Positions 3,462-21,466 of a stretch of DNA of 35,474 nt are shown here, piece after piece (position 1 is the first letter of the stretch; the number at the start of each line of letters is the position of its first letter). Where the stretch lies: the NCBI GenBank assembly GCA_013316435.1, contig WSMR01000005.1:1-35474 (forward strand), read 5' to 3'. The position numbers and the translations under genes were made by a program. Under the pieces are notes generated by a model. That model worked only from the letters and a program-made list of their open reading frames with translations. It made no database searches and was not told the origin of the DNA. Source of the DNA: Candidatus Saccharimonadota bacterium (GTDB lineage: Bacteria; Patescibacteriota; Saccharimonadia; Saccharimonadales; Saccharimonadaceae).

Positions 3462-3941
3462 ATGCCACGTAAAGTTACTAAATCTTTGCAACGTAAAATT
3501 TCACCGGATCGTAAGTATCAGTCTGTTTTGGTGCAGCGTTTAATTAATAAAAGCATGCTTGATGGCAAGAAACAGGTTGCCGAACGTGCTGTTTATGAAG
3601 CGCTTGAAGGTGCAGCAAAGAAGTTGAAGTCGGAAGATCCAGTTGAGGTTTTTGAAAAAGCAATCGCCAATATTTCGCCGGATTTTGAAGTGAAATCTCG
3701 TCGAGTTGGTGGTGCTAACTATCAAATTCCATTCCCGATTTCCGGTCATCGTCAAGAGCATTTTGCTTTCACTTGGTTAGTCCAAGCGGCGCGCGCTCGT
3801 AGCGGTATGCCGTACGCGAAGCGCCTTGAGCTAGAAATCGTTGATGCCTACAATGAAACTGGTGCTGCCTTCAAGAAGAAGGAAGATTGTCACCGCATGG
3901 CTGAGGCAAACCGTGCCTTTGCACATTTTGCAAGAGCATAG
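3462..3941 (+). CDS. rpsG: 30S ribosomal protein S7
   Basis: MPRKVTKSLQRKISPDRKYQSVLVQRLINKSMLDGKK...RRVGGANYQIPFPI...HRMAEANRAFAHFA. Confidence 0.97.
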   Translation: MPRKVTKSLQRKISPDRKYQSVLVQRLINKSMLDGKKQVAERAVYEALEGAAKKLKSEDPVEVFEKAIANISPDFEVKSRRVGGANYQIPFPISGHRQEHFAFTWLVQAARARSGMPYAKRLELEIVDAYNETGAAFKKKEDCHRMAEANRAFAHFARA

Positions 3942-3963
3942 GATTATTAGCCTAGAAATTGAA

Positions 3964-3990
3964 AGAGGAGTCCGATGGGCTCCTCTTTTT
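3964..3990 (+). terminator. Intrinsic terminator after rpsG
   Basis: GAGGAGtccgatggGCTCCTCTTTTT. Confidence 0.85.
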
Positions 3991-4021
3991 ACTCTGATTA
4001 TGGCTTTGATTGTCAGAAAAA

Positions 4022-4534
4022 TTACCGATTGGAAAACATAATGTAGTATATAGCCATGTCATTTTCCATTTCGCTAGTCCTTACCCATTCAACGAATTTA
4101 GGGTTTGTGTTAATTTCCTCAGTGTCACCGCAGTCTTGAGGCAGACCATTTGGTATCGGCCTGGAGTGGCGCATCACTAAGAGCGTATGCGTAGGACTCG
4201 TGGAGGTGATATAAAATTCCTCCGTGTCGCCATTGTAGTCCCCTTGAATGAAATTGTCTAAGGTAATTCGCCACTCCAGTCGTGAATATTCTGATGAAAA
4301 CGGCGGGAAAGCGGCGAGCAACGGGTATGGCATTCGTCCACATATATCCGCTCTTTGCGCAAATCCTATTGGTAGTCTTCGAGAAAAAACGAGATTAAGA
4401 TTTGGCAAAGTGTCGCCAAAAAGAGATACTATCACCTGGTCGGTGCCGCAATCGTTTTTGCGAATCGTATAGCTCGCCTCCCCACATAGCTACCTAAGCT
4501 CAGTATCTGAGAGTAACTTCGTCTGCATTTCCAT
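4022..4534 (-). pseudogene. Hypothetical accessory gene interrupted by an in-frame TAG at 4492..4490
   Basis: SD (AGGGAGA) and ATG at 4534 give MEMQTKLLSDTELR*LCGEASYTIRKNDCGTDQ, in frame with the listed 137-aa ORF (4435..4022). Confidence 0.6.
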
Positions 4535-4621
4535 AAAAAATCTCCCTTTTCTTTAGGCTAGACATCAAAGTCTTTAGATAGATTAAAGTTCTTTTATGCC
4601 CGCCCACATAATTATCTCTCC
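4535..4621 (-). ncRNA. 5' leader of the 4534 gene, homologous to the 20590..20689 leader
   Basis: GAGAGATAATTATGTGGGCGGGCATAAAAGAACTTTAAT...ACTTTGATGTCTAGCCTAAAGAAAAGGGAGA. See findings. Confidence 0.5.
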
Positions 4622-4650
4622 ATTCTATCACAGATTGATATAAAAGTCAA
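4622..4650 (-). promoter_or_regulatory. Sigma70-type promoter TTGACT-N17-TAGAAT
   Basis: Reverse complement: TTGACTtttatatcaatctgtgaTAGAAT. Confidence 0.75.
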
Positions 4651-4687
4651 GACCTTGAACATTGAAAGTAGTTTTTAACATGAAAAT

Positions 4688-4732
4688 ACCACCCCTAATT
4701 CGCGGTATTCTTTGAATCTTGGGGTGGTTTTT
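4688..4732. terminator. Intrinsic, probably bidirectional, terminator
   Basis: ACCACCCC...GGGGTGGTTTTT; inner ATTC/GAAT also pairs. Confidence 0.75.
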
Positions 4733-4762
4733 GCGTCTGATGTTGTAGTTTTTTCTGTGTCG

Positions 4763-5461
4763 CTAAATTGCTGCCGCGAGTTCTTCGGCAACAAGTTCTG
4801 ATCCCGCCAGGGAACCTTCGTTTGTTTCTGCGGTGCACAGTGCTTCGCATTCTTTTCTTAAGGCACTGAATGGATGTTCTTTCAACACATCCCGCAGATA
4901 TAGCTTAATCCGTCGTACCTCTTTTGGGCGCTCTTTTTTGAAAGTGCGCTCAAGCCTGCTGTATTCGCGACGGAGCGTCTTGTCATTCTTGCTGGCAAGC
5001 AGAAACTTAAGCAGGCAAATACAAATAGCGATACCCCTAAAAAAGTGGGGCATCTCCCCAGGTAATTGCAATCCTCCCGGCAAGGGTTTCGTATTATCCG
5101 GCCGGTAGCAGATCCAAATGCAGCCTTCTTTGCACCGAACTGTAATGACCCAACAACTGTGGCAAATATCCCATAAACCGGTAGGATATTCATACGCTGC
5201 ATTCGGTAAATAGCTTGACGATAAAATCCCCCAAGCTCGGTCAAGCGCCCGGCGTAGCTCGGCAGCTTCGGCCTCATTGCTGGCAATGAGAAATGCGTCA
5301 CGACGCATTTCTACTCGTCTGCTATCAGGCTGGTTGTAACGGCGCGTTTGGGCTAAGAGCGAGCCCCCTAATCCAACTTGCTCGAAAGCCCTACGCAGGA
5401 TCTCAATCGTTATCGGATCGAGGAATGACTCGTTTACTACTGTTTTTTTGAAACCTTTCAA
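4763..5461 (-). CDS. Hypothetical protein (232 aa)
   Basis: Long ORF with a TTG start 6 nt after AGGAGG; strong promoter upstream. No family recognised. Confidence 0.7.
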   Translation of the reverse strand: MKGFKKTVVNESFLDPITIEILRRAFEQVGLGGSLLAQTRRYNQPDSRRVEMRRDAFLIASNEAEAAELRRALDRAWGILSSSYLPNAAYEYPTGLWDICHSCWVITVRCKEGCIWICYRPDNTKPLPGGLQLPGEMPHFFRGIAICICLLKFLLASKNDKTLRREYSRLERTFKKERPKEVRRIKLYLRDVLKEHPFSALRKECEALCTAETNEGSLAGSELVAEELAAAI

Positions 5462-5560
5462 GTTAACCTCCTTTGAGTTGACAATCCCAGTGCACTAACT
5501 AAAACATCAAACAGATTAAAGTGCGACTAGGAAATTTTCGAGTTCCAAGTACATCTTACC

Positions 5561-5589
5561 ATTGTATCACAGATTTTTATTTATGTCAA
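5561..5589 (-). promoter_or_regulatory. Sigma70-type promoter TTGACA-N17-TACAAT
   Basis: Reverse complement: TTGACAtaaataaaaatctgtgaTACAAT. Confidence 0.8.
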
Positions 5590-5668
5590 TAGTGAAGAAA
5601 TTTACGAAAACTTTATCCTTATGGCAAAAGTGTGCTATAATTAACCGTAAGTAGGTTTAGGAGGAATC

Positions 5669-6667
5669 ATGGTCAGATTAGCTATCAATGGGTTTGGTCG
5701 CATTGGTCGGTGCGCGTTTAAGATTGCTTTTGAACGTCAGGACGCTGAAATCGTAGCGATCAACACGATTGGCTTACCGATGGAACTAGCGCATTTGCTG
5801 AAATATGATTCCGCTTATGGAGTCTATGACCACGATATTGACTACGATGACAAGCATATTATTATTGACGGTCAGCCAATTTTATTCTTGCAGGAGGCAG
5901 ACCCGTCAAGGCTGCCGTGGGATCGCTTAAAAGTTGATACGGTACTAGAATGTACTGGTAAATTCCGTTCACCCGCTGATGCGCGAGCCCATATCAAAGC
6001 TGGGGCGCGCAAAGTAGTAATTTCGGCGCCAGCCAAGGGCCAGGGTGCAAAGACGGTAGTGCTAGGCGTAAACGAAGAGGTTGTCACGGCTGATGATGAT
6101 GTTATTTCTTGCGCTAGCTGTACAACCAATTGTATTGCGCCAGTAATGAAAGTTTTGGAAGATAACTTTGGGATCGAGAAAGCCATGATGACAACAGTGC
6201 ATTCTTACACGGCTTCACAAAAGCTGCAAGATGACGCCGCAAAGGATTTGCGAGAAGCGCGTGCGGCGGCAGTCAACATCGTACCGACTAGTACTGGGGC
6301 ATCAAAAGCTACCGCACTAACGATTCCAAGTCTCGAGAACAAATTTAACGGGCTTTCGGTGCGTGTGCCGAGCCTAGTGGTGTCGCTTGCCGATATCACG
6401 GCGCTAGTAAAGCGCCAAACTACGATTGCGGAGCTAAATCGAGTTTTCGAAAAAGCCGCCGATGAGCCATACTATGAAGGTATTCTTGCCGTGACGCACG
6501 AGCAGTTAGTTAGTACTGATTTTCGTGGTAATTCCAACTCGGCAATTGTAGACTTGCCGCTTACCGACGTAGTTGACGGTGATATGATAAAAATCGTCGC
6601 CTGGTATGACAATGAGTGGGGTTACTCGAATCGTTTAGTTGAACTATCGGTGGATTTTGGGAGGTAA
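5669..6667 (+). CDS. gap: Glyceraldehyde-3-phosphate dehydrogenase
   Basis: INGFGRIGR, SCASCTTNCIAP, AAAVNIVPTSTGASKA, WYDNEWGYSNR. Confidence 0.97.
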   Translation: MVRLAINGFGRIGRCAFKIAFERQDAEIVAINTIGLPMELAHLLKYDSAYGVYDHDIDYDDKHIIIDGQPILFLQEADPSRLPWDRLKVDTVLECTGKFRSPADARAHIKAGARKVVISAPAKGQGAKTVVLGVNEEVVTADDDVISCASCTTNCIAPVMKVLEDNFGIEKAMMTTVHSYTASQKLQDDAAKDLREARAAAVNIVPTSTGASKATALTIPSLENKFNGLSVRVPSLVVSLADITALVKRQTTIAELNRVFEKAADEPYYEGILAVTHEQLVSTDFRGNSNSAIVDLPLTDVVDGDMIKIVAWYDNEWGYSNRLVELSVDFGR

Positions 6668-20353: not shown

Positions 20354-20522
20354 TTGGCACTACGACAGCCCATAGCCCTAGCTCTGTATCCTTTCTCAGA
20401 TTTGGGCTGTAGTAAAAATACAACAGCCAACTTAGTCCATAAGCTAAACACGTTCTGTTGTAATTTTTACTACGAACAAGTCCAGGATACAGAATTAGGG
20501 TTATGGGTCACATTAGTGTCAA
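20354..20522. repeat. Long imperfect inverted repeat (~169 nt)
   Basis: Nested arms: 20354-20362/20514-20522, 20369-20392/20484-20507 (21 of 24), 20409-20426/20455-20473 (one 1-nt gap). Confidence 0.8.
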
Positions 20523-20589: not shown

Positions 20590-20689
20590 GAAGAGATATC
20601 ATATGGGCGGGCATTGAAGTACTTTAATATACTTACGTATATATTTGTATACTTTTGATGCCTAGCATAAAGAAAAAGGGGGAATTCTC
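20590..20689 (+). ncRNA. 5' leader homologous to the 4621..4535 (minus) leader
   Basis: GAAGAGATATCATATGGGCGGGCATTGAAGTACTTTAAT...CTTTTGATGCCTAGCATAAAGAAAAAGGGGGA. Confidence 0.5.
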
Positions 20690-21466
20690 ATGAAAAGAGA
20701 ACAGAATTTGAAGGAAAAAGCAAGGAAAATGGCGAGGCTCGGCCGAATTTTTATTTTCGGAGGGCTGATTTGCGCGATCGTAAGCTTAATGTATTGGCGG
20801 GCGGATCGCGAAGAACGGCGATTAGCCGAGCAGCAGGAAAACGCTACTAAGCTTGACAAAAGCGTAGACCACGTAATTGACCCTGCTCCACCAACTCCGG
20901 CTCCGGCTATTGTTGACTCTTGGTACAAAGGCGGACAGATGGTTCCGAGTAAGGAGTTGGGTGAAGACTCCGACTGGCAGATTGCAGTCTATGGTGATGT
21001 GTCAGAGCAGGGACTGGAAGACAGTACGGTCGAGAGTCGTAATTTGAATGATTCTGAACTTGCTAATTCATTGTCAGCGCTTTTTATGACCGAGGATGAT
21101 GACGGGCAACGCAGGAGTTTTGATGATTATATTGAAGAGCCTGTAATCATTGAGCCAGGTAAATATCAGATTGAGTTTGACTGCACCCGATACAATTTGT
21201 CATTACCCGTGGATCAGAAGACGATGAAGTATTTCATTGTTCCGACCAGGTTGAGGGGGGATAGTGAAAGGGCGATTACATTTGCATTGTATGACGACGA
21301 AAATCGGCAGTTTCATCAGATCTGTGTGCCGTTTAGGAGTGAAAAATTTGTTGTGATTAAATATGCTCTTGACGATGTTTTTGTAGAAGAAACGTGGGGG
21401 CAGGTTTATCGCTTGTGTTTTGAAGTGACGGAGACTAGTCCTTGGCCAGATTCAAATCCTCAGTGA
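20690..21466 (+). CDS. Hypothetical membrane-anchored protein (258 aa)
   Basis: SD GGGGGA; basic N-terminus and one TM (LGRIFIFGGLICAIVSLMYW); acidic extracytoplasmic domain. Confidence 0.8.
   Translation: MKREQNLKEKARKMARLGRIFIFGGLICAIVSLMYWRADREERRLAEQQENATKLDKSVDHVIDPAPPTPAPAIVDSWYKGGQMVPSKELGEDSDWQIAVYGDVSEQGLEDSTVESRNLNDSELANSLSALFMTEDDDGQRRSFDDYIEEPVIIEPGKYQIEFDCTRYNLSLPVDQKTMKYFIVPTRLRGDSERAITFALYDDENRQFHQICVPFRSEKFVVIKYALDDVFVEETWGQVYRLCFEVTETSPWPDSNPQ

Follow-up and report, generated by a model that had tools for sequence, protein, structure and literature searches.

Two copies of one 5' leader

The window, meaning the whole stretch of 35,474 nucleotides analysed, is contig C63 of a Saccharibacteria draft genome (693 kb, 82% complete). 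It carries the same 5' leader, leader A, before two unrelated genes, at 4615-4535 on the minus strand and 20596-20689 on the plus strand, as described in the original prediction. The following features are found at the two loci:

4622..4650, minus strand: promoter of copy 1 (TTGACT-N17-TAGAAT), read in the sequence; this promoter type recurs in the genome
4535..4615, minus strand: leader A copy 1, from the predicted transcription start to the start codon (alignment A2; 95.7 bits with R1, the covariance model of the leader A pair)
4541..4554, minus strand: extended Shine-Dalgarno sequence AAAGAAAAGGGAGA of copy 1, read in the sequence (16S 3' end of the relative G034)
4022..4534, minus strand: broken gene downstream of copy 1, with 14 codons, TAG (4492-4490) and then, still in frame, 155 open codons
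20561..20589, plus strand: promoter of copy 2 (TTGACT-N17-TATAAT)
20596..20689, plus strand: leader A copy 2 (alignment A2; R1 match of 116 bits)
20669..20683, plus strand: extended Shine-Dalgarno sequence AAAGAAAAAGGGGGA of copy 2, read in the sequence (16S 3' end of G034)
20690..21466, plus strand: orphan gene of 258 amino acids behind copy 2; judged by eye, one membrane segment is likely at its N-terminus

The two copies align end to end, beginning at the promoter and finishing a few bases 5' of the start codon, and are ~72% identical; their likeness reaches no further than the promoter at one end and the start codon at the other. A 25-base core pattern of the leader matches twice in the window and not at all in 100 shuffles, and blastn with the leader alone, copy versus copy, gives an E-value of ~1e-5 against the own genome. 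The TTGACT-N17 promoter that had been proposed ahead of each copy is found in both cases and is of the type TTGACT-N17-TAnAAT. The promoter part is uninformative, since many promoters of the own genome match about equally well. The proteins behind the two copies had been described as dissimilar, and a BLASTP E-value of 11 agrees with this. Because the likeness ends on both sides and the proteins are unrelated, the pair is not a gene duplication: whole-locus homology, which had been named as evidence against a shared leader element, was looked for and continues neither into the flanks nor into the protein.

The genes behind the leaders

The gene that had been placed at 4534 does have the leader, but the gene itself is broken by a TAG at codon 15. 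Its product is MEMQTKLLSDTELR*, and the frame of the open codons that follow has a weak coding signal. A pseudogene, an assembly error and a 14-codon upstream reading frame are the three explanations considered. No homologue of either gene behind leader A was found in the 59 other genomes searched. The nearest relatives compared share 83-84% GAPDH identity with this genome, so that no very close species is among them.

Copy 1 lies in the rpsG-gapA junction (window 3941-5669), which is 1.7 kb long here and holds two orphan genes. The junction measures ~330-370 bp in close relatives (L089, L092) and is longer in several others, and in other species other genes are inserted. Because of this difference in length, the junction is regarded as a variable insertion spot. 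Between ligA and copy 2, at window 20360-20520, there is a long imperfect inverted repeat with the arms CCCATAGCCCTAGCTCTGTATCC / GGATACAGAATTAGGGTTATGGG and TGTAGTAAAAATACAACA / TGTTGTAATTTTTACTAC, which is possibly a terminator or a small mobile repeat. In ~18 relatives, the LigA match breaks near residue 160 and its pieces lie ~70-130 bases apart, although the frame is open throughout; the adenylation domain has a variable insertion here.

Predicted stem and search for further members

In both copies, a stem is predicted from the following arms:

4596..4606, minus strand: predicted 5' stem arm TGGGCGGGCAT of copy 1 (inner-stem pair probability 0.78-1.00)
4554..4565, minus strand: predicted 3' stem arm ATGTCTAGCCTA of copy 1
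20604..20614, plus strand: predicted 5' stem arm TGGGCGGGCAT of copy 2
20658..20669, plus strand: predicted 3' stem arm ATGCCTAGCATA of copy 2

The GGGCAU/AUGYCU stem is present in the single-sequence folds of both copies, with pair probabilities of 0.78-1.00. The energies of these folds are just 1-1.8 sd below those of shuffles, and the consensus fold (alifold) of the two-copy alignment has a p-value of 0.041. Nine of the 11 stem pairs are invariant, one shows the change from G-C to G-U that had been correctly noted, and one is broken in copy 2. The broken pair (columns 12 and 73 of A2) lies in the outer helix. Double (compensatory) changes are seen in 0/11 pairs, a count to which two sequences give little power. 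The modelled stem is therefore considered plausible but not demonstrated. A loop-tail pseudoknot (CUUUA:UAAAG) in leader A is not above shuffles (p 0.65 and 0.95).

The original prediction had named a lack of further members as evidence against it; R1 found none beyond the two copies, either in 120 relatives or in 393 class genomes. A search of 60 relatives and of genome and viral collections with exact and relaxed DNA patterns returned the two copies and three exact matches from the viral collection. The viral matches were rejected as leaders, as all three are inside coding sequence. The L040 leader scores 24.6 bits against R1 (E 0.12) and is a candidate third member. For leader A, no Rfam match was found at the gathering threshold and nothing beyond noise even at E = 10; the suggestion that it is riboswitch-like is weak, with neither an Rfam match nor anything pointing to a ligand.

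A second pair of structured leaders was met in the own genome, at L040:3464-3574 (minus) and L071:3927-4037 (plus). These share TAGCGC..AAGTA-TTTA..TTTGTGGTGCA and lie before two unrelated orphan genes; their alignment score is 38, versus 33 for the best of 20 shuffled sets.

A leader motif of the genus

The proposal that leader A is a cis-regulatory RNA is supported indirectly by its core, GNACUUUAA, which is a genus-wide, strand-specific leader motif beside Shine-Dalgarno sites, but not by covariation of the stem or by any sign of a ligand. The motif, GNACWUUAA, is on the sense strand in both copies and once more in the window:

4583..4591, minus strand: GAACTTTAA, variant of GNACWUUAA in copy 1; the same variant is found in the phoH leader L343
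20619..20627, plus strand: GTACTTTAA, genus-wide leader motif in copy 2 (motif counts, phoH leaders)
5516..5524, minus strand: GCACTTTAA, third linear copy of the motif; the orphan gene 4763-5461 has it in its 5' leader, where there is no leader A stem

For the motif counts, those 5' leaders were used that follow a recognisable promoter. The pattern GYACWUUWA is found in nine leaders of the own genome versus 0.6 expected (3 in the upstream and 2 in the antisense control) and in 14 leaders of G034 versus 0.8 expected (controls 1 and 1). The form GCACATTA is found in 15 leaders of G034, with 0.5 expected and controls of 0 and 0. In the leaders of G034, the motif is the top-ranked 7- and 8-mer, above the Shine-Dalgarno sequence itself. 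Across the genus (~104 genomes), GCACATTA-N-GGAGG has 102 matches versus 21 for the backward pattern, and GTACTTTAA-N-GGRGG has 115 versus 21 (118 genomes); these sums were added by hand, and overlapping G-runs double-count a few. Ahead of Shine-Dalgarno sites, the motif is therefore ~5 times commoner genus-wide than its backward control. In other families of the order, GCACATTA-N-GGAGG has ~33 matches versus 28 backward.

Tandem mixed copies of the motif, GCACATTATGTACTTTAAGGAGG in G027 and GCACATTACGTACATTAAAAAGGAGG in G187, suggest that its spellings are interchangeable. Of 32 loci of the genus, 12 have GGTGG 5' of the motif (shuffled mean 1.3, maximum 4). It was also considered whether the motif always follows a stable hairpin, but the signal is weak, with a mean z of -0.84 versus -0.45 elsewhere. 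The motif is more than a longer Shine-Dalgarno sequence, because its GUAC or GCAC part is not complementary to the 16S 3' end, which reads ATTACCTCCTTTCTT in the relative G034. The genes behind it are of mixed function and include phoH, H+-pyrophosphatase, DegV, adenylosuccinate lyase, and genes with GGDEF and HD domains; of 20 genes tested, 10 match no Pfam family.

The motif of leader A lies ~30 (copy 1) and ~50 (copy 2) bases 5' of the Shine-Dalgarno sequence and does not adjoin it as in most members. Leader A is thus outside the ~25-base spacing of the class, and some other members in the own genome also have spacings of 24 and 42. In the predicted fold of copy 1, much of the motif is base-paired.

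Leaders of phoH

The motif has been followed across species in the leaders of 25 phoH orthologues, one per species, which are 52-100% identical to the query. Nineteen of the 25 leaders hold a sequence within one mismatch of GTACTTTAA, while the shuffled mean is 0.35 and the maximum 3. The spellings include GUACUUUAA, GUACAUUAA, GCACAUUAA and GAACUUUAA. The leaders open with GGYGGGAG or AGUGGGAG and fold into a hairpin (P1), behind which comes a U-rich stretch. In L328-L352, ~60-85 bases 5' of the phoH start codon, the hairpin GGYGGGAG..CUCUCAUUUUU is seen, and the motif adjoins GGAGG.

In P1, pairs 4 to 6 are changed on both sides with standard pairing kept; in an 11-sequence alignment, pair 6 alone shows a both-side change. 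A second helix, P2, in which loop and tail can pair, has double changes in five of six pairs, and the complementarity of loop and tail is greater within species than between species (p = 0.007). In the 11-sequence alignment, as many double-change pairs as observed arise in 30 of 500 shuffles, and the observed paired fraction is reached in 78 of 500; because of these shuffles the P2 pseudoknot is regarded as probable, not proven. The phoH leaders match no Rfam family and are, from their sequences, a candidate new structured leader RNA.

Leader A and the phoH leaders have a G-rich 5' arm, GNACWUUAA and the extended Shine-Dalgarno sequence in common. The arms GGCGGGCAT/ATGTCC of the phoH leader L350 resemble those of leader A, and the 9-mer GGCGGGCAT occurs in both; by estimate, this is near what chance alone would give and is a hint only. 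In the phoH leaders, the motif is 3' of the hairpin and touches the Shine-Dalgarno sequence, whereas in leader A it is inside the stem loop. R2, a covariance model built on the phoH leaders, does not recover leader A, nor does the leader A model recover the phoH leaders. Because R2 does not find it, leader A is not filed under the phoH structure.

Proposed function and alternatives

Leader A is a mosaic of genus-wide parts: the common promoter, the extended Shine-Dalgarno sequence and the motif GNACWUUAA. The explanation that is favoured, with modest confidence, is that it belongs, as a duplicated variant private to its lineage, to a genus-wide class of translational 5' leaders read by a trans-acting factor. 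Judged from the sequences, this class would be defined by GNACWUUAA, usually beside an extended Shine-Dalgarno sequence and often after a G-rich GGYGG element or hairpin, and leader A and the other motif leaders may share a common origin. The motif would be the binding site of the factor, with an RNA-binding protein as the most likely candidate and a small RNA as second choice. Bound near the Shine-Dalgarno sequence, the factor would raise or lower translation, and scattered accessory genes could in this way come under joint control with a small number of core genes (phoH, H+-pyrophosphatase, DegV). The GGGCAU/AUGYCU stem of leader A may hold the motif in its loop and so bring it nearer to the Shine-Dalgarno sequence. 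It is most likely that the motif acts as RNA, at translation initiation and through a trans-acting factor, because it is strand-specific, is spaced from the Shine-Dalgarno sequence and not from the promoter, and is conserved amid diverged flanks. The cis-regulatory reading of leader A, through the genus-wide motif, is moderately supported, and the motif is the more interesting result. The broader proposal, that the genus runs a translational regulon through an RNA-binding factor that reads GNACWUUAA beside the Shine-Dalgarno sequence, in many cases together with a G-rich hairpin or pseudoknot, and that leader A is a copy captured by orphan genes at variable loci, is put forward tentatively.

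Leader A could instead be just a strong expression module that was duplicated recently, consisting of a promoter, an mRNA-stabilising 5' hairpin and a strong Shine-Dalgarno sequence, on two orphan genes without a regulator, and the motif could be an unspecific AU-rich enhancer of translation such as a ribosomal protein S1 site. The promoter and Shine-Dalgarno sequence are indeed the standard of the genus, the copies of leader A number two only, and in the own genome stable hairpin leaders that differ in sequence precede several orphan genes (z -3 to -8). An AU-rich enhancer does not account for the G and C at fixed places of the motif, which are kept in the phoH leaders across species, nor for its strand specificity or the ~5-fold lower counts of the backward controls. 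Orphan genes as a class were also considered to have more stable leaders, but the difference from conserved genes is not significant (p = 0.10 in G000, 0.91 in G034). This explanation is considered unlikely.

A DNA operator just 3' of the promoter, bound by a repressor, is improbable. The sequence AAGTACTT is palindromic, the L040 leader holds the perfect palindrome TTAAAGTACTTTAA, and the motif lies within ~110 bases of promoters; however, the form GCACATTA is not palindromic, the spacing of the motif tracks the Shine-Dalgarno sequence and not the promoter, and the strong orientation bias (antisense control of 0-2) disfavours AAGTACTT as an operator. A metabolite-binding riboswitch, in which stem and loop would form a ligand pocket beside the Shine-Dalgarno sequence, is a weak and very improbable reading, for although the stem is predicted in both copies and the phoH leaders with the same motif have a covarying P1 and significant loop-tail complementarity, the loop-tail pairing of leader A is no better than shuffled, compensatory changes and Rfam matches are lacking, and the downstream genes are unrelated.

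Comparison with known leader elements

The cis-regulatory leaders in Rfam 15, such as riboswitches, ribosomal protein leaders and the T-box, are also structured or motif-bearing and lie between promoter and Shine-Dalgarno sequence. They differ in that, for the leaders searched, no family scores as high as its gathering threshold; the sole cis-regulatory match is an ordinary L10 leader in G034. A long T-box-like leader was seen at L056:9236-9460 (plus) before a class I tRNA synthetase gene and is a candidate T-box by the look of its sequence, with GGTACCGC and a terminator-like hairpin.

In Bacillus, 5' mRNA stabiliser hairpins stand close to the start of the transcript on otherwise unrelated genes, with a strong Shine-Dalgarno sequence behind them. 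By analogy, leader A may be compared with these, as both combine a hairpin near the transcript start with a strong Shine-Dalgarno sequence before unrelated genes. Unlike a generic stabiliser, leader A has a linear motif that is conserved across species and that a stabiliser would not need.

In the literature searched, no described leader RNA element was found in Saccharibacteria. Translational control has been proposed as key to the switching of epibiotic Saccharibacteria between the attached and free states (PMC11665869). A defined motif and a list of its targets, phoH and many orphan genes among them, bring the question of how this switching works within reach of tests in cultured strains.
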